A program made the position numbers and the translations under genes. Shown in pieces: positions 56,402-63,082 of a stretch of 64,000 nucleotides of DNA; the stretch's first letter is position 1; each line of letters begins with the position of its first letter. This stretch comes from Halanaerobium saccharolyticum subsp. saccharolyticum DSM 6643. Lineage in GTDB: Bacteria > Bacillota > Halanaerobiia > Halanaerobiales > Halanaerobiaceae. The stretch is taken from the NCBI RefSeq assembly GCF_000350165.1, contig NZ_CAUI01000021.1:186001-250000 (forward strand), given 5' to 3'. Under the pieces are notes generated by a model. It saw nothing but the letters and a program-made list of their open reading frames with translations, searched no databases and was not told the origin of the DNA.

Positions 56402-57322
56402 TTAATTTTTTTCAAGGGGAAGATCACTTCGATTGCTCCAGCCAACCCAAGCTTCATCGTATAATTTAAGGTTTTCATAACCGAGTAGTTTTAGTGCAAA
56501 AAATGTATGAGCTGCTCTGACTCCCGTGTGAGAGATGAGTGCAACGACTTCTTTTTCTCTAGTTATACCGTTTGCCTCATAAATCTCAGCAATTTTTGCA
56601 GCAGACTTGAAACTATAATCATCATTTAAGACTTCTGTCCAATTAATATGAATAGCATTTGGAATTCGACCTTTGCGAGGAGCAGCAGAATTTGTTTCTT
56701 CACCCATAAATTCAGCTTCAGATCTTGTGTCTAAAATAACGAAATCTTTATTATTTAGATTTTCAGCTATAGTATCAGAATTTACTATCCAATTATTATT
56801 CACATCACTTACAATAAAGTTTCCCTTTTTATTTTTATGAGGGAGTATTTTTGTTTCATAGCCTTTATTTTTCCAGGCATCATAGCCGCCTTCTAAAATT
56901 TTTATATTTTGATGATCATAAACTTTGAAAACCCACCATAATCTTGCAGCCCAGAGGTTGCTGTTGTTATCATAAACAATAATTTGCGAATTTTTATTAA
57001 TACCCTTTTCTTGTGCAGCAGCAGCAAATGCACCTGGTTTAGCAATTAATCCTTTAACCCAGCCGTCTGGATCAGTAAAATCGTCATCCCACATATTGAC
57101 AGCGCGCGGCAAATGTCCTAGAAGATACTTTGTGCTGTTACGGACATCAAGTATTTTGAGATTTTCTTTTTCTTCTTCTATCATTTGATTTAATTCTTCT
57201 GCAGAAATTAAAAACTCACTGCTTTCAAAATTGCGTTCCTCGGCAGTAGCAAAAGATGTTATTAGAATAAGAGTAGATAAAATAATAGATAAAATTATAA
57301 AAAAATTAGTGAAGTTATTCAT
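56402..57322 (-). CDS. Exported two-domain rhodanese with Ser in place of the catalytic Cys
   Basis: A thiosulfate-sulfurtransferase-like protein of 306 residues. The ATG at 57322 has SD AAGGAGG on the minus strand; the longer frame upstream lacks one. The signal peptide or anchor is at about 5-25, and tandem rhodanese domains cover about 33-160 and 170-300. The first domain shows LKILDVRNSTKYLLGHLPRAVN and IVYDNNSNLWAARLWW. The second shows FVILDTRSEAEFMGEE and the active loop LISHTGVRAAHTFF. Aligned to the paralogues at 60.2 and 61.3 kb (YCQSAVRSSH), the catalytic Cys is Ser at about residue 264. It is probably inactive as a sulfurtransferase, or altered in chemistry. It is divergent from the nucleoside hydrolase. 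Confidence 0.9.
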   Translation of the reverse strand: MNNFTNFFIILSIILSTLILITSFATAEERNFESSEFLISAEELNQMIEEEKENLKILDVRNSTKYLLGHLPRAVNMWDDDFTDPDGWVKGLIAKPGAFAAAAQEKGINKNSQIIVYDNNSNLWAARLWWVFKVYDHQNIKILEGGYDAWKNKGYETKILPHKNKKGNFIVSDVNNNWIVNSDTIAENLNNKDFVILDTRSEAEFMGEETNSAAPRKGRIPNAIHINWTEVLNDDYSFKSAAKIAEIYEANGITREKEVVALISHTGVRAAHTFFALKLLGYENLKLYDEAWVGWSNRSDLPLEKN

Positions 57323-57499
57323 TTTCAGGCCTCCTTGAGCTGGTTCTTTTCTTATATATATTATTATATACCTTGAATAAAAAAAATTCATCCGTTTCAA
57401 GATTTTAATTAGAAAAAATATCAAAGGCAGGATTTTTATAATCTTTGTTGAAATTAATATAAGAGTAAATAGATAAAAATTGACTGTTAGGAGGACAAA

Positions 57500-58414
57500 A
57501 TGAAAAAAGTAATATTAGACTGTGATAATTCAATGGGTTTAGAAAAAAAAGATGTAGATGATGGACTTGCCTTTTTATTTCTATTAGGTCGAGAAGATAT
57601 TGATTTAATGGCTGTTACCAGTGTTTTTGGTAATAGTAATTTAGAAGATACTTTCAATACTACTGAGAAAATGTTGAATGATTTTAAATTAAAAGATAAA
57701 ATAAAGCATTTAAAAGGTGCTGCCAAAGCAGGTGACTATAAGACTGAAGCTGCTGATTATTTGGTCAAAGCTGCATCAGAAAATAAAAATGAAATAACTC
57801 TAATTGCTATAGGACCTCTTACTAATTTGTATGCTGCCTGGGAAATAGATAATGACTTTTTCAAAAATTTAAAGGAAATAATTATTATGGGTGGGATTAC
57901 AGAGCCCTTACAAATTGGAAATAAAACTATTGATGAGCTCAATTTAAGCTCTGATCCAAAAGCAGCAGAAAAGGTCTTAAAAGCTGAAGTTCCTGTTGCC
58001 TTAATGTCTAGTAATCTCTGTCTTGCTGCCCGATTTGGTGAAAAATCATGGCGTCGAGTTAATAGATCTAAGAATAAAGCTGTAAGAGCCTATATTAAAC
58101 ACAAGATTAACCATTGGTATCAATATTCTTCAGAAATGATCGGTTTAACTGGTTTTTATATGTGGGATGTTGTAGCTGTGGTTTACATGATTGCTCCCGA
58201 AATCTTTCCATATAATAAAAGAAAATTTGTTTCAAGTGTTGAAGATTTAAAAAATGGGATGATTAAAACAGAAAAGGCAGAGGGAATGCTCCAAGATGAA
58301 GCAGTAATCAATTTACCTTCTACTATCCTTGATACAAAAAGGTTTAAAGACCTGGTCTTTTCAGCTTGGGATAAAATCGAAATTGAAACGGAAAGTTATA
58401 AAGATGCTGAATAA
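57500..58414 (+). CDS. Inosine-uridine preferring nucleoside hydrolase family protein
   Basis: Hydrolyses ribonucleosides to base and ribose. The 304-residue protein starts at ATG 57500 with SD AGGAGG. The N-terminal metal site is KKVILDCDNSMGLEKKDVDDGLAFLF, a variant of the family's DTDPGxDDA motif. TLIAIGPLTNLYAAW and IIIMGGI are classical family blocks, and the late FYMWDVVAV supplies the last Asp. The C-terminal end overlaps the PucR-type regulator by 11 bp, so the two are co-transcribed. That supports a nucleoside or purine salvage role. Confidence 0.92.
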   Translation: MKKVILDCDNSMGLEKKDVDDGLAFLFLLGREDIDLMAVTSVFGNSNLEDTFNTTEKMLNDFKLKDKIKHLKGAAKAGDYKTEAADYLVKAASENKNEITLIAIGPLTNLYAAWEIDNDFFKNLKEIIIMGGITEPLQIGNKTIDELNLSSDPKAAEKVLKAEVPVALMSSNLCLAARFGEKSWRRVNRSKNKAVRAYIKHKINHWYQYSSEMIGLTGFYMWDVVAVVYMIAPEIFPYNKRKFVSSVEDLKNGMIKTEKAEGMLQDEAVINLPSTILDTKRFKDLVFSAWDKIEIETESYKDAE

Positions 58415-59678
58415 AGACGAGCTTCAGGATTTATTTTTTATTCAACATGATTTAACAGATAAGCTTTTAAGTGATGCTGGTCTTAGAACTTTTGCTTCTA
58501 TTTTAACTAAAAATCTAGGGGCAGATGTATATATATATGATCGATTTCGGGACGATTTAATATATGCTGACAGGAAAATAAAAAGAGATAGTCAATTTAA
58601 TAACTATATAAAAGAGAGAAAGTTAAAGCGTAAGGATACTGCCTTTAAATGTTGTATGGTAGAAATTTTTGAATATCATTATCAATGGCAGGGAGAAATA
58701 TATACGGAACTTCAGCTGGATTTGGGAAGAGATGAAATTGTTGCTGTTTTAGCGATTAGTAACTATGAGGAAATGAGCGAATATGAATTTAGAATTTTGA
58801 TTATTGTTGCTCAATCTCTTGCCTTAAAAATTCATCAAAATAAACTTGTATCTGAGATGGCTCAAAAATGCAGCAGTGAATTAATTGAAGATATTATTAA
58901 CAATAGAATTGAAGACAAGTCTGAAATTATTCAGCGAGGACAACTTGCTAATTGGAATTTGAACTTAAACTACCAGCTTTACTTAATTTCGGTTAAAGCT
59001 GAAAAAAATATTTCTGATCAAGATGCATATTATTTTTATGAAATTAAAGAAAGGATAATGAAAAAACTTCACGGTGTTTTACAAAACAAAATTTCTCGGG
59101 AATATATTTTATTTTCCTATGATAAAAATATAGTGCTGCTGATTAATTATGATAAAGAGACTGAAATTAATAAAGATGATATTAAGATAATTAAAGATGA
59201 ACTTACAGAAAAAATTGATAAATTCTATTTTAATATTGGTTCAGGTATATATATTAAAGAGGTTACTGAAATTGCTGAAAGCTATCAGCAGGCTTCTTAT
59301 GTACTTGATTTTCTTGAGGCAACGGAAAGAAAAAATGTAATTTATTATTATAAACAATTAGGGATAATGAGGCTGCTTTGGAAAATAAACCAAGAAGAGT
59401 TAAAAGAATTTACCACAGAATATTTAACAAAGCTAATAAAATATGACAAAGGCAACAGTACAGAATGGCTTGATACACTTGGAGTCTATCTAGAAGAGGG
59501 TGGAAGCATACAGCAGGCTGCTAAAAGATTGTTTATTCATCCAAATACAATGAGCTACCGTGTCAAAAGAATTAAAGAAATTTTAGAAATTGACCTTCAG
59601 GATCAAGAAGTACAACTCAACTTACTGGCTGCATATAAAATTTGTAAATATATTTTAGAAGATGATCTTGATATTTAA
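58404..59678 (+). CDS. PucR/CdaR family transcriptional regulator
   Basis: A 424-residue regulator. ATG 58404 (GGAAAG upstream) overlaps the nucleoside hydrolase stop; the longer frame inside that gene has no SD. The N-terminal 150 or so residues look like a GAF-type sensor region (FRDDLIYADRKIKRD), then a PucR-like domain. The C-terminal HTH is LEEGGSIQQAAKRLFIHPNTMSYRVKRIKEIL, typical of PucR/CdaR regulators. PucR in Bacillus controls purine catabolism and CdaR sugar diacids. Here the nucleoside hydrolase upstream fits purine control, while tusA and the rhodaneses downstream are also possible targets. The final codons lie in a 24-bp palindrome that probably terminates transcription. Confidence 0.92.
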   Translation: MLNKDELQDLFFIQHDLTDKLLSDAGLRTFASILTKNLGADVYIYDRFRDDLIYADRKIKRDSQFNNYIKERKLKRKDTAFKCCMVEIFEYHYQWQGEIYTELQLDLGRDEIVAVLAISNYEEMSEYEFRILIIVAQSLALKIHQNKLVSEMAQKCSSELIEDIINNRIEDKSEIIQRGQLANWNLNLNYQLYLISVKAEKNISDQDAYYFYEIKERIMKKLHGVLQNKISREYILFSYDKNIVLLINYDKETEINKDDIKIIKDELTEKIDKFYFNIGSGIYIKEVTEIAESYQQASYVLDFLEATERKNVIYYYKQLGIMRLLWKINQEELKEFTTEYLTKLIKYDKGNSTEWLDTLGVYLEEGGSIQQAAKRLFIHPNTMSYRVKRIKEILEIDLQDQEVQLNLLAAYKICKYILEDDLDI

Positions 59679-59695
59679 ATATCAAGATTTTCTTC
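59665..59695 (+). terminator. Terminator overlapping the end of the PucR-type gene
   Basis: A perfect 24-bp palindrome at 59665-59688 covers the last four sense codons and the TAA (59676-59678), and is followed by TTTTCTT. Confidence 0.75.
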
Positions 59696-59737
59696 AAAAG
59701 ACTTTGTTCAAAGATTAACAAAACTGGAGGTTTTAAA

Positions 59738-59995
59738 ATGATTATTAATATAGATTGTATAGGCGACCCTTGTCCAATTCCATTAATTAAAGCTGAAAAA
59801 AAATTATTAAAACTTGGAGTTAGCGATCAAATTTGTTTAGAGACTGATCATAATTGTGCTTTAAATATTGTTCCCGAGTGGGCTAGAAATAAAGGGTTTA
59901 AAGTAGAAATTGAAGAGACTCCATATTTAGAGTGGAAGATATATATTAAAAGAGAACAAAAAAAAGAAGTCAATGAAGAAGTTGTGCTTAAATAG
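59738..59995 (+). CDS. tusA: TusA/SirA family sulfur carrier protein
   Basis: A small sulfur-relay protein of 85 residues starting at ATG 59738 with SD TGGAGG. Its active-site motif CIGDPCPIPLIKAEK has the CPxP Cys at about residue 12 that carries persulfide. NCALNIVPEWARNKGFKVEIEE and a final beta strand complete the IF3-like fold. TusA-type proteins receive persulfide from rhodaneses or desulfurases and pass it on. Here it sits between three rhodanese genes, which is a typical sulfur-transfer grouping. It is cytoplasmic, whereas the neighbouring rhodaneses carry signal peptides, so direct handover is not obvious. It has its own terminator-separated unit. Confidence 0.92.
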   Translation: MIINIDCIGDPCPIPLIKAEKKLLKLGVSDQICLETDHNCALNIVPEWARNKGFKVEIEETPYLEWKIYIKREQKKEVNEEVVLK

Positions 59996-60014
59996 CTTAA
60001 AGATTTATCTATGG

Positions 60015-60051
60015 TATTTATTTAACATGTTAATAAAGTATTTATTTAACA
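60015..60051 (+). repeat. Direct and inverted repeats upstream of the rhodanese promoter
   Basis: GTATTTATTTAACA occurs at 60015-60028 and again at 60038-60051, start to start 23 bp. TTAACATGTTAA (60022-60033) is a perfect 12-bp palindrome overlapping the first copy. They lie about 80-120 bp upstream of the -35, in the 214-bp gap between tusA and the first rhodanese, and could be activator sites. Confidence 0.6.
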
Positions 60052-60132
60052 AAACAGACCATAATAAACCATTCTAAGCTTTTCTTTGTTTTTGACAACG
60101 AAAATATAGATTTTTTTTATATTTCACCACCA

Positions 60133-60183
60133 ATGACAATGTGATATATTTAACTATATAATAGTATTGTGAAAAATAAAACA
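60133..60183 (+). promoter_or_regulatory. Promoter and conserved leader of the first rhodanese gene
   Basis: ATGACA (60133-60138), 18 nt, TATAAT (60157-60162), then four bases and TTGTGAAAAATAAAACA (60167-60183). The same 17-mer stands at the same distance from TATAAT before the next rhodanese gene. Confidence 0.7.
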
Positions 60184-60209
60184 CTACTAAATTATTGGAG
60201 GGAATAATA

Positions 60210-61151
60210 TTGTTAAAAAGCAAAAGAGAAAGTTTATTAGTTTTATCACTTGTTTTAGTTATGGTTATTAGTTTTTCCTTGATGGCGGCAGCAGAATTTG
60301 TGCCAATCGAAGATCGTGGTTATGCAAATCCTGATGTTTTAATTAGTGCAGCTGAATTGGAAGAAATTATGGACAGAGATGATGTTAAGATAGTTGATTT
60401 CCGTAATCTGGCTATGTATATGACTGGACATATTCCTGGATCTACCAATGTTTGGCGTTCTGATCAATCAGATGAAAATGCTGAATTTGCAGGTATGAGA
60501 GCAAATGCAGAGCAGATGGCTGCTATGTTAAGCGAAAAAGGTATTGCTGAAGATGACCTAGTTGTTATTTACGATGCAAAAGGTGATTATGATGCATCAA
60601 GAATGTGGTGGATCTTAAAAATGTACGGTCATGATAAAGTGAGATTACTTGATGGTGGATTAGAAAGATGGAAAGCTTTAGACAAAAAGACAAGTGTTTT
60701 TCCAAGTAGTTATGAGGAAACAAACTATACTTTTGATGAGTCTGAATTTGACTTTTCAATGTTAGCTACAATGGAAGATGTTGAAGCAGCTATTGATAAT
60801 GATAATGCTTTAATTTTAGATACTAGATCTGAAGGCGAACATACTGGAGCTGACCTTAAGAGTGGTGCAGAAAGAAAAGGATGTATTCCAAAAAGTGTTT
60901 GGATCGAATGGACTGAAGCCTTAAATGATGATCTAACATTTAAGTCTGCTGCAGATTTAGAGGAAGTATATGGCGAAGCAATTGAAGGTAAAGAATTAAT
61001 TATTCCATATTGTCAGTCAGCAGTTAGATCTTCACATACTACATTTGTTTTAACCCAGTTATTAGGTGTAGATGCAGAAGTTAAAAATTATGATGGTTCC
61101 TGGATTGAATGGAGTGCTACCGAAGAATTACCAGTAGAAAATGGTGAATAA
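60210..61151 (+). CDS. Exported two-domain rhodanese (thiosulfate sulfurtransferase)
   Basis: Transfers sulfane sulfur, classically from thiosulfate to a thiol or cyanide acceptor. I set the start at TTG 60210 (SD GGAGGGA at 60197-60203); TTG 60195 lies upstream of that SD. The signal peptide spans about 6-30 (LLVLSLVLVMVISFSLMAA) without lipobox. The first rhodanese domain (VLISAAELEEIMDRDDVKIVDFRN, VVIYDAKGDYDASRMWW) lacks Cys, as usual. The second holds IILDTRSEGEHTG-like ILDTRSEGEHTG and the active loop YCQSAVRSSHTTF, with Cys near residue 268. A close paralogue follows in tandem with its own similar promoter. It is extracytoplasmic by prediction, making it a candidate thiosulfate-using enzyme. 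Confidence 0.92.
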   Translation: MLKSKRESLLVLSLVLVMVISFSLMAAAEFVPIEDRGYANPDVLISAAELEEIMDRDDVKIVDFRNLAMYMTGHIPGSTNVWRSDQSDENAEFAGMRANAEQMAAMLSEKGIAEDDLVVIYDAKGDYDASRMWWILKMYGHDKVRLLDGGLERWKALDKKTSVFPSSYEETNYTFDESEFDFSMLATMEDVEAAIDNDNALILDTRSEGEHTGADLKSGAERKGCIPKSVWIEWTEALNDDLTFKSAADLEEVYGEAIEGKELIIPYCQSAVRSSHTTFVLTQLLGVDAEVKNYDGSWIEWSATEELPVENGE

Positions 61152-61183
61152 TAAATATAAATTAAATAATTAAGATTTTATTT

Positions 61184-61210
61184 AGGCGAGAGGATATCCT
61201 CTCGCCTTTG
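61184..61210 (+). terminator. Terminator after the first rhodanese gene
   Basis: A 24-bp perfect palindrome at 61184-61207 (arms AGGCGAGAGGAT) is followed by TTG. Confidence 0.75.
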
Positions 61211-61255
61211 TTGATTAAACACTAAATTTTCTATAAAAATTGTTAATTTTTAATA

Positions 61256-61305
61256 ATGAAAAACGTAGCAGCTGAAGATATAATTTAATTGTGAAAAATA
61301 AAACA
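61256..61305 (+). promoter_or_regulatory. Promoter and conserved leader of the second rhodanese gene
   Basis: ATGAAA (61256-61261), TATAAT (61279-61284), four bases, then TTGTGAAAAATAAAACA (61289-61305), identical to the leader before the first rhodanese gene. Confidence 0.7.
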
Positions 61306-61327
61306 ATTTTAAAAAGGGGGATTTATT

Positions 61328-62239
61328 TTGCGTAAAATGAAAAATTATTTAGTTGTGCTTGGTCTTGTTTTTTTAATTGCAGTTGGATTTAGTTTTATGG
61401 TGGGGGCCGAATATGTAAAGATTGAAGATAGAGGTTATGCAAATCCTGAAGCTTTGATTAGTGCTGAGGAGTTAGCAGAAATAATTGACAGAGATGATGT
61501 TGTAGTTGTTGATAACAGGGGTAAAATTGGTTATGCTGCTGGTCATATTCCTGGTGCAATTAAAATTGAAAAATCAGAAATGAAAGCTAGTGGAGGCATG
61601 AGACTTTCTAAAGAAAATTTTGAAAAATTATTTTCTGAAAAAGGTATAAAAAATGGAGATACAATTGTTGTTTATGATGATCATGGAGATTTGTATTCAG
61701 CCTGGTTATGGTGGTCAGCAAAGATTTATGGACATGAAGATGTAAGAATGTTAGATGGTGGTATTGACCGCTGGAATGCACTGAATTATGAGACAAAAAT
61801 GTTTCCAGACAGTTTAGCTGAAAGTAATTATAAAGCTGAGGCTCTTGATGAAAGTTTATTAGCACATAAAGAGGATGTTTTGGCAGCAATTGAAGAGGAT
61901 AATATAATAATTCAGGATACTAGAGCAGAAGCAGAACATAATGGAGAAAAACTATTATCTGGTGCAGGACGTAAAGGTAGAATTCCAAGTTCTATTTGGT
62001 TAGAATGGGATGAGTCACTAAACGAAGATCATACATTTATGACTGCTGAGGAACTTCAGGATCTTTATACTGCCAGAGGAATTATTGATGATAAAGAGAT
62101 CATTACTTACTGTCAGTCAGCTGTAAGATCATCACATGCATTATTTACTTTAACTCAGTTACTTGGTTATGATGATGTTGAAAACTATGATGGTTCTTGG
62201 GTTGAATGGAGTAATGATGAGTCTTTACCAGTAAAATAA
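61328..62239 (+). CDS. Exported two-domain rhodanese, tandem paralogue
   Basis: A second thiosulfate-sulfurtransferase-like protein, 303 residues, starting at TTG 61328 with SD AAGGGGGA. The signal peptide (YLVVLGLVFLIAVGFSFMVGA) is followed by YVKIEDRGYANPEALISAEEL, nearly matching the preceding gene's VPIEDRGYANPDVLISAAEL. The first domain lacks Cys (IVVYDDHGDLYSAWLWW). The second has IIQDTRAEAEHNGE and the intact active loop YCQSAVRSSHALF with Cys near 262. The two genes clearly arose by duplication and kept the same promoter-leader block. A strong terminator follows, so each is monocistronic. Confidence 0.92.
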   Translation: MRKMKNYLVVLGLVFLIAVGFSFMVGAEYVKIEDRGYANPEALISAEELAEIIDRDDVVVVDNRGKIGYAAGHIPGAIKIEKSEMKASGGMRLSKENFEKLFSEKGIKNGDTIVVYDDHGDLYSAWLWWSAKIYGHEDVRMLDGGIDRWNALNYETKMFPDSLAESNYKAEALDESLLAHKEDVLAAIEEDNIIIQDTRAEAEHNGEKLLSGAGRKGRIPSSIWLEWDESLNEDHTFMTAEELQDLYTARGIIDDKEIITYCQSAVRSSHALFTLTQLLGYDDVENYDGSWVEWSNDESLPVK

Positions 62240-62268
62240 CTAGATTTTAAAATTAAATTATTTTGATT

Positions 62269-62297
62269 AAAGAGAGGGGGATTCCCTCTCTTTTTTT
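62269..62297 (+). terminator. Rho-independent terminator after the second rhodanese gene
   Basis: AAAGAGAGGG (62269-62278) pairs with CCCTCTCTTT (62284-62293) across a 5-nt loop and leads into a T-run. Confidence 0.93.
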
Positions 62298-62339
62298 ATT
62301 GCTTTAAAAAAAAGATTATTTTATGATTTAGCAAAATTA

Positions 62340-62348
62340 TGCTATAAT
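62340..62348 (+). promoter_or_regulatory. Extended -10 promoter of the glycosyltransferase pair
   Basis: TGC-TATAAT (62340-62348) lies 42 bp before the TIGR04283-type gene and just after the preceding terminator; no clear -35. Confidence 0.5.
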
Positions 62349-62389
62349 AGAAACAAGTTTTATTTATTTGAAAGGCGGAAAATTTAATT

Positions 62390-63082
62390 ATGGAATTTCA
62401 ACTTTCAGTTATTATTCCCACATTAAATGAGGAAAAGAATATTGCTGATATAATTGATTTTATAAATCAAGAGAAAATAAAAGTAGAAATTATTATTTCA
62501 GATGCTGATAGCACTGATAAAACTAAACAAATTGCGGCTGCAAAAGGAGCAAAAATAGTTAATTCTAAAAATGCAAGTCGTGGTAAACAGCTTAATAAAG
62601 GTGCTAAGATTGCAAATGCGCCAATTTTATTGTTTTTACATGCGGATTCTACTTTAGATAAAGGCTCGTTATCTCTATTAGTTAATAAAATGCAAAATCA
62701 AATAGATAAAATAGGAGGCTGTTTCACTTTGGAAATTAAGTCCGAGCATCCTCTTTTAAAATTTATAAGTGGGTCTTCTAATCTGCGATCAAAATACTTT
62801 AAATTGATTTTTGGTGATCAGGGAATTTTTATAAGAAAAGGAATTTTTAATGAGTTGGGTGGCTTTCCTGATATAGAATTAATGGAAGATTGGGAATTCT
62901 CTAAAAAGATGAGCGAGTTTGGAAAAATGCTTTTTTTAGATAAAAAAATTTACACATCAGCTAGACGCTGGGAAAAATTTGGAGTTTTAAAAACAATTCT
63001 TTTAATGCATAAAATAAAAATTTTATACCTATTAGGTTATAGTCCAGAAAAACTCAAAAAAATGTATCATGACGCCCGTTAA
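62390..63082 (+). CDS. TIGR04283-type family 2 glycosyltransferase
   Basis: A GT2-fold glycosyltransferase of 230 residues starting at ATG 62390. It has LSVIIPTLNEEKNIADII, IIISDADSTDKTKQIAAAKGAK, the family-specific NASRGKQLNKGAKIANAPILLFLHADSTL, and FGDQGIFIRKGIFNELGGFPDIELMEDWEFSKKM. These match the TIGR04283 family, named after arsenosugar clusters but also found without arsenic genes. It is followed by its usual partner, a TIGR04282 (DUF2064) protein, then a kinase-like gene. No arsM or radical-SAM arsenosugar gene is visible here, so the product is unknown. Confidence 0.88.
   Translation: MEFQLSVIIPTLNEEKNIADIIDFINQEKIKVEIIISDADSTDKTKQIAAAKGAKIVNSKNASRGKQLNKGAKIANAPILLFLHADSTLDKGSLSLLVNKMQNQIDKIGGCFTLEIKSEHPLLKFISGSSNLRSKYFKLIFGDQGIFIRKGIFNELGGFPDIELMEDWEFSKKMSEFGKMLFLDKKIYTSARRWEKFGVLKTILLMHKIKILYLLGYSPEKLKKMYHDAR

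Follow-up and report, generated by a model that had tools for sequence, protein, structure and literature searches.

A repeated block at the promoters of tandem rhodanese genes in Halanaerobium is most likely an operator of the redox repressor Rex

The Halanaerobium genome under study (G000, 2,871,925 bases) carries two tandem rhodanese genes, here called A and B, preceded by a gene for a TusA-like sulfur carrier and a gene for a PucR-type regulator (Table 1). Positions are those of the window, the whole stretch of 64,000 nucleotides that was analysed (C20:186001-250000). The TusA-like protein falls short of the cut-offs set for YedF and TsuB/YeeD in NCBIfam. Rhodanese A probably starts at its TTG codon rather than at the longer ORF start at 60195. 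Its N-terminus resembles a signal peptide by eye, its closest solved relative is the thiosulfate sulfurtransferase 3p3a (3.6e-46) and its closest named relatives belong to H. saccharolyticum (83%) and a Halanaerobium MAG (71%). Between 59600 and 62400 a search for the sigma-70 consensus yields no overall excess of promoters (18 vs 14.2 +/- 4.2 in shuffles); the promoter of A reaches 11/12 when read one base earlier as ATGACA-N18. Terminator-like hairpins are over-represented in the same region (5 vs 1.0 +/- 1.3 in shuffles), and the hairpin between A and B fits separate transcription of the two genes. The PucR-type gene was considered as a local regulator for its proximity, and no result ties it to the site described below.

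Table 1. Genes, promoters, terminator-like hairpins and candidate operator sites around tusA and the rhodanese genes (positions in the window).
Feature	Position	Strand	Remarks
PucR-type regulator gene	58329-59678		adjoins tusA on its upstream side
Near-consensus Rex operator (candidate) before tusA	59704..59721	+	TTGTTCAAAGATTAACAA; 1 mismatch to TTGTTAAN4TTAACAA
tusA-like sulfur carrier gene	59738..59995	+	85 aa; Pfam TusA 9.6e-17
Operator-like site between tusA and rhodanese A, function unsure	60011..60028	-	13.65 bits, rex-site matrix
Operator-like site between tusA and rhodanese A, function unsure	60035..60052	-	11.06 bits, rex-site matrix
Rhodanese A promoter	60134..60162	+	TGACAA-N17-TATAAT; kept in G002 and G004
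Second operator-like site, rhodanese A -35/-10 spacer	60139..60156	-	ATGTGATATATTTAACTA on + strand
Rhodanese A downstream operator (candidate)	60167..60184	+	TTGTGAAAAATAAAACAC; starts 4 nt after -10 box, overlaps predicted transcription start
Rhodanese A	60210..61151	+	Pfam Rhodanese, 2 stretches; TTG start 60210, Shine-Dalgarno GGAGGG
Terminator-like hairpin between A and B	61184..61207	+	10-pair stem, 7 G-C pairs
Rhodanese B promoter	61256..61284	+	ATGAAA-N17-TATAAT; sigma-70 consensus scan 10/12
Rhodanese B operator (candidate)	61289..61306	+	TTGTGAAAAATAAAACAA; inverted arms AATTGT-N10-ACAATT
Rhodanese B	61328..62239	+	Pfam Rhodanese, 2 stretches; 52% identical to A
Terminator-like hairpin after B	62269..62295	+	

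The initial annotation drew attention to an identical block, TATAAT-N4-TTGTGAAAAATAAAACA, before both rhodanese genes, and its coordinates (60157-60183 and 61279-61305) are exact on re-reading of the sequence. The copy of A consists of TATAAT (60157-60162), AGTA and the 17-mer (60167-60183), that of B of TATAAT (61279-61284), TTAA and the 17-mer (61289-61305); the run common to both intergenic regions is actually 18 bases long (ATTGTGAAAAATAAAACA). A search of the 2.87-Mb genome for further copies, which the annotation had called for, returns the exact 17-mer at these two places only, each time 4 nt after TATAAT. With up to two mismatches the 17-mer occurs at eight places (five forward, three reverse) vs five for a reversed control pattern.

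A block shared by tandem paralogues could be a functionless relic of gene duplication or of local gene conversion. A recent duplication requires high identity across the whole A/B unit, and such identity had been named beforehand as the result that would undo the argument for selection. The unit has in fact diverged, as first claimed: the coding sequences are identical at 566 of 906 positions (62.5%), third codon positions at 49% and the proteins at 158 of 302 residues (52%). No run of at least 17 bases appears in 1500 first-order Markov pairs of the two intergenic regions, the longest simulated run being 14. Another 17-base identical run falls in the A/B coding alignment, where protein conservation can explain it, so length alone is not unique and it is the position outside the genes that needs explaining. 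A relic is also at odds with the retention of the element in the orthologues of two other genomes, where most other upstream DNA has changed, and is a very improbable origin of the block. Chance deserves hardly any credence: the window is AT-rich (32.5% GC) and chance alone predicts copies of the 17-mer at three mismatches (2.59 expected vs 5 found), but the simulations (0/1500) rule it out at the level of the Markov model and the sole two exact copies in the genome share their place past TATAAT.

The two orthologues of rhodanese A that keep the element belong to the Halanaerobium genomes G004 (TTGTGAAATTTAAAACAT) and G002 (ATGTGAAAAATAAAACAT). Kept along with it are TGACA, the spacer sequence ATGTGATAT-N-TTTAAC and the -10 box. 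The site in this spacer is conserved in G002 and G004, with a similar one in the paralogue G000_C. The block as first described, though exact, left out this second conserved site and the stronger one before tusA. The site at 60011-60028 has no clear conservation in the upstream regions of G002 and G004. In G007 and G010 the element (TTGTGAAAAAAAAGACAA) sits 17 nt after a TATAAT box, vs 4 nt in G000. Five more distant genomes (G044, G050, G053, G054 and G056) have a related TTGTGA...TCAA element near the ribosome site and, by eye, further from the likely promoter; it ends in TCAA, not AACA, and from its sequence may belong to another regulator. A second dyad, perhaps the site of a CRP/FNR-type regulator, lies upstream of this element in G044 (TTTGTGATACTAATTACAAAG; L012 1241-1261) and in G050 (TTTGTGAAAATAATGACAAAG; L013 1286-1306).

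When upstream pieces of 170 nt with approximate start points are compared with 300 Markov copies each, p is 0.013-0.043 for G000_A, G000_B, G002, G004, G007, G010 and G050, and 0.08-0.17 for G000_C, G044, G053, G054 and G056a. Two genomes counted as lacking the element give p = 0.010 (G039) and 0.20 (G022), both with unlike sequences. Most other rhodanese paralogues tested have no such site (best scores 0.26-4.33, p 0.39-0.89), namely the gene at 56402-57424 in G000, the second paralogues of G004, G007, G010 and G056, and those of G001, G003, G005, G006, G008 and G009; the upstream region of a G011 paralogue scores 9.73 bits (p 0.11). In G012, which belongs to a different genus within the family, a distant rhodanese is preceded on the other strand by a strong rex-like site (TTGTTAAAAAAAGTACAA; L030; 16.3 bits, 0/300 copies). 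The promoter region of a further G000 paralogue (C20 near 288000) contains a pair of ATGTGAT...AACAT dyads at a distance of 21 bp (L040 4949-4966, 4970-4987). The selection on the block that had been suggested is supported by the lack of whole-region identity and by the retention of the element in G002 and G004, and a conserved regulatory site is taken to be real.

Both 17-mers start with TTGTGAA, which corresponds to the TTGTKAA left arm of the Rex operator (ROP). On this sequence the block would join a -10 box to a downstream operator of 18 bp, with TTGTGAA as its left and AACA as its right arm, at which Rex, a repressor that senses NADH, would bind. This reading is held to be probable, and a Rex operator is the most likely identity of the conserved site. 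Rex of S. aureus is described as binding TTGTGAAW4TTCACAA (PMC2883068), and the Rex motif given for Thermoanaerobacterium is TTGTTAN6TAACNN (PMC5886521). The sites share with these Firmicutes operators the length of 18, a TTGT(G/T)AA left arm, an AT-rich centre and a position near redox-balance genes; they differ in the right arm, which is AAACA or TAACA here vs a clean TTCACAA or TTAACAA, and in their targets, which are rhodaneses and tusA. The right arms AAAACAC (A) and AAAACAA (B) give 3 and 2 mismatches to the relaxed Rex consensus vs 1 at the tusA site. Over 17 sites, 16 of them at rhodaneses, the fit is imperfect to every consensus, with 2-5/14 mismatches to relaxed Rex and 2-4/12 to the CRP/HcpR type. 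The tusA site itself matches a Rex-type operator better than both copies of the 17-mer. Directly before it, at the end of the PucR-type gene, stands a perfect 18-bp palindrome (TTGATATTTAAATATCAA, 59668-59685).

In G000 one of the two rex genes starts 22 nt downstream of a copy of the 17-mer with two mismatches (TTGTTAAAAATATAACA, C18:157423-157439). Directly before this paralogue a TTGTTAA...TAACA-type site is present in 12 of 14 family genomes; in one exception (G003) the upstream sequence ends with the contig and the other (G008) has one Rex only. The site stands on the strand opposite to the rhodanese orientation, and the shared site class is found at one of the two rex paralogues only. 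The C18 protein matches the Pfam domains Put_DNA-bind_N and CoA_binding, scores over the cut-offs of NF003995, NF003994 and NF003996 (three of the nine NCBIfam Rex models listed) and misses that of NF003990 by 2 bits. At 33% identity, the two Rex proteins of G000 belong to separate clades (support 100/99), with one long branch, G050_26, of unsure place. In the complex of T. maritima Rex with DNA, Arg48 is described as recognizing one G of the arm and Lys49 the following G and A, and binding of NADH pulls the recognition helices off the DNA (PMC8836258). The Arg-Lys pair (RKD) is present in both G000 proteins. The second-clade Rex of G044, G053, G054 and G056 has RQD in the recognition helix, vs RKD in Halanaerobium (L226, L227). 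An A-like rhodanese (E <= 1e-80) occurs in 12 genomes, ten of which have the element; in this count of related genomes nine of the ten also have a second-clade Rex, the tenth (G050) has its second Rex on the long branch of unsure place, and the two genomes without the element (G039 and G022) are also without a second-clade Rex.

Alternatively, the first transcribed bases or the leader RNA could be under selection, through start choice, promoter escape, mRNA stability or a hairpin formed by AATTGT-N10-ACAATT. The block does lie directly 3′ of the -10 box in both genes, and a hairpin over the element is part of the best fold in four of six leaders (A, B, G002 and G010). The fold of the G002 leader is more stable than those of its shuffles (-6.2 kcal/mol, z -2.85), but this leader is the only one of the six with z below -2; the other five range from -0.90 to +0.52, the best folds of G004 and G053 are without the hairpin, and a conserved, thermodynamically favoured structure is thus not seen. 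Rfam gives no match at gathering score in 57000-62400, only sub-threshold ones. The spacing to TATAAT that varies between 4 and 17 nt and the opposite strand at rex are not expected of an RNA or start-site element, and this explanation is improbable. Of the two causes first proposed for the preservation of the block, a regulator site holds up, given G002 and G004 and the presence of the site class at rex and some Rex-type genes; transcription initiation is disfavoured by spacing and strand.

The HcpR-like operator motif of the CRP/FNR family is TTGTGA-N6-TCACAA. The block could be the operator of another dimeric regulator, most likely a member of this family, serving as a start-site repressor or as an activator elsewhere. 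The TTGTGA left arm is the same and so is the 18-bp dyad, most rhodanese sites have as many mismatches to this motif as to that of Rex or slightly fewer, G000 has nine HTH_Crp_2 matches, and the sites of the five more distant genomes end in TCAA. However, in all 12 Halanaerobium sites counted (10 distinct) the C that TCACAA requires is replaced by A or G in the right arm, which excludes the TTCACAA form of the Rex operator too but still fits the TTAACAA form. A TGTGA-N6-TCACA dyad is accordingly lacking at these sites, and symmetric TTGTGAN6TCACAA has no exact match in G000 and is found at two places in 12 Halanaerobium genomes, as is the reversed control (2). The tusA site is without a TGTGA arm, a repressor would fit the place directly behind the -10 box, and rex too is preceded by this class of site. 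Ownership by a CRP/FNR-type regulator is on balance unlikely, and Rex is retained as the preferred regulator.

The pattern TTGTKAAAWWWWWAACA has four exact matches in G000. Three are upstream of rex and of the two rhodanese genes, A and B, and the fourth precedes an AgcS amino-acid carrier that comes after the gene for component C of glycine/sarcosine/betaine reductase. Twelve Halanaerobium genomes contain 21 exact matches vs 2 for the reversed control. Eight precede rex, two rhodanese A (G000 and G004), one rhodanese B, two AgcS next to reductase component C (G000 and G008) and one an iron alcohol dehydrogenase (G011), and further ones belong to a divergent NADH-dehydrogenase-like/ApbE pair (G010) and, by eye, to an FMN-binding-like protein (G004). 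Of the five others, two are in G007, one upstream of a regulator that has a sugar-binding domain and one within the end of a gene, 31 nt ahead of a short-chain dehydrogenase. A match in G003 precedes a DUF305 protein, one in G011 is intragenic and one in G004 has no gene close by, so that two of the five fall inside genes. The pattern was composed with knowledge of the sites, and the eight rex matches, which suggested it, and the three rhodanese matches are not independent; the ten that remain still exceed the two control matches. At one mismatch the excess in G000 is small (21 vs 14 control). Genes typical of Rex control, for alcohol and NADH dehydrogenases and amino-acid reduction, are thus among the carriers of the site class (one alcohol dehydrogenase, one NADH-dehydrogenase-like/ApbE pair and two AgcS in 12 genomes), with none of the dehydrogenase cases in G000.

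Broader searches of G000 are less specific. TTGTGAAN4TTCACAA at fewer than two mismatches is absent from the genome, and the Rex consensus at three mismatches is uninformative, with 246 matches per strand, below the control (292). TATAAT-N0-8-TTGTGA occurs at 24 places vs 13 for the control, 16 of the 24 being without a downstream start according to a simple gene-start finder. One such arrangement, TATAAT-N4-TTGTGA with an upstream TTGTAAAGCAGTTGACAA dyad, precedes a small gene that is ferredoxin-like by eye (G000:C22 near 136311, L162) and from its sequence possibly another member of the regulon. A conserved TTGTGAAATATATAACA site lies between the reductase component C gene and the AgcS carrier in two Halanaerobium genomes (L003, L293).

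A matrix built from nine rex sites (four distinct sequences, with G000, G002 and G004 left out) concentrates its matches at the locus. Six of the seven intergenic matches of at least 9 bits in the window fall in the upstream regions of tusA, A and B, which make up 812 of its 10,996 intergenic positions; at a 5-bit threshold the share is 6/24. The ten best matches of the window are those at 59704, 61289, 60011, 60167, 60139 and 60035 and four in coding sequence. With 60 column-shuffled matrices the top ten intergenic matches held at most three in this block (mean 0.93), vs six observed. The site at 61289 scores 13.97 bits (second), that at 60167 11.66 bits (rank 7) and that at 60139 11.16 bits on the - strand. 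A second matrix has no Halanaerobium input and consists of six predicted Rex sites of Thermoanaerobacterium saccharolyticum and their reverse complements, taken from those given in PMC5886521; it ranks, among 63,983 positions, 59704 first, 61289 third, 60167 ninth and 60139 tenth, the six input sites having been chosen for fit to the stated motif and for energy-metabolism genes. The tusA site therefore ranks first in the window with both matrices, and the sites at 60011 and 60035 are outside the top 14 of the window scan with the published-site matrix.

Under control by Rex, the NAD+ form of the repressor would cover the transcription starts of both rhodaneses, as a dimer at 60167-60184 or 61289-61306 would overlap the predicted start; at rhodanese A the second site, between -35 and -10, would be available as well. 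High NAD+ would lead to repression, and accumulation of NADH would make Rex leave and allow expression. The tusA gene and both rhodaneses would then be expressed when electrons need a sink, for example thiosulfate or sulfane sulfur. The sequence, its conservation, the site class common to rex and a few alcohol-dehydrogenase, NADH-dehydrogenase-like and amino-acid-carrier promoters, and the concentration of sites at this locus are observed; we infer binding of Rex at the block, relief by NADH and a role of the rhodaneses in electron disposal.

The candidate operator is of a known sort, and rhodanese and tusA would be, within the literature searched, newly predicted targets of Rex. Control of a rhodanese by Rex does not appear in the titles and abstract starts among the matches listed, the main survey of Rex regulons (Ravcheev 2012) being outside the search. 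Tables in two papers on L. sakei (PMC5669474, PMC3146418) contain an ArsR-type rhodanese and Rex, and tables in one on S. xylosus (PMC6167427) a rhodanese and Rex, in each case unlinked there. No paper naming Rex together with Halanaerobium was found in the literature searched, which covers few subscription journals.

In the published account of the thiosulfate-to-sulfide system of Halanaerobium, several rhodaneses are present per genome, three are more abundant with thiosulfate in a Halanaerobium other than G000, and rhodaneses are proposed to begin the thiosulfate reduction through which the organism gives rise to sulfide in shale wells (PMC5497025). The main text of that account contains none of the words promoter, regulat- and Rex. 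A parallel exists in T. saccharolyticum, for which a Rex site is predicted before asrABC (PMC5886521), so that genes of a sulfur electron sink are under predicted Rex control in both cases. They differ in the gene, a rhodanese here and a sulfite reductase there. The AsrA profile TIGR02910 has no match in G000 and matches in 6 of 15 genomes, over the cut-off in three; a full thiosulfate-to-sulfide operon in G000 was discarded as a candidate for want of that match.

A wider proposal, put forward tentatively and more likely wrong than right, is that a second, lineage-specific Rex in Halanaerobium and its relatives may place exported rhodaneses and a TusA-type carrier under direct control of NADH through mixed TTGTGAA/AACA operators, making the use of sulfur a sink switched by Rex. 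If the sites are Rex operators, these genes would be turned on when a salt-loving anaerobe needs an outlet for electrons, and the use of sulfur by Halanaerobium would be tied to the NADH/NAD+ ratio, which yields a testable prediction of the timing of sulfide. Souring and corrosion in fractured shale are linked to the use of thiosulfate or sulfane sulfur, which, should the wider proposal hold, would be an electron sink switched by Rex.
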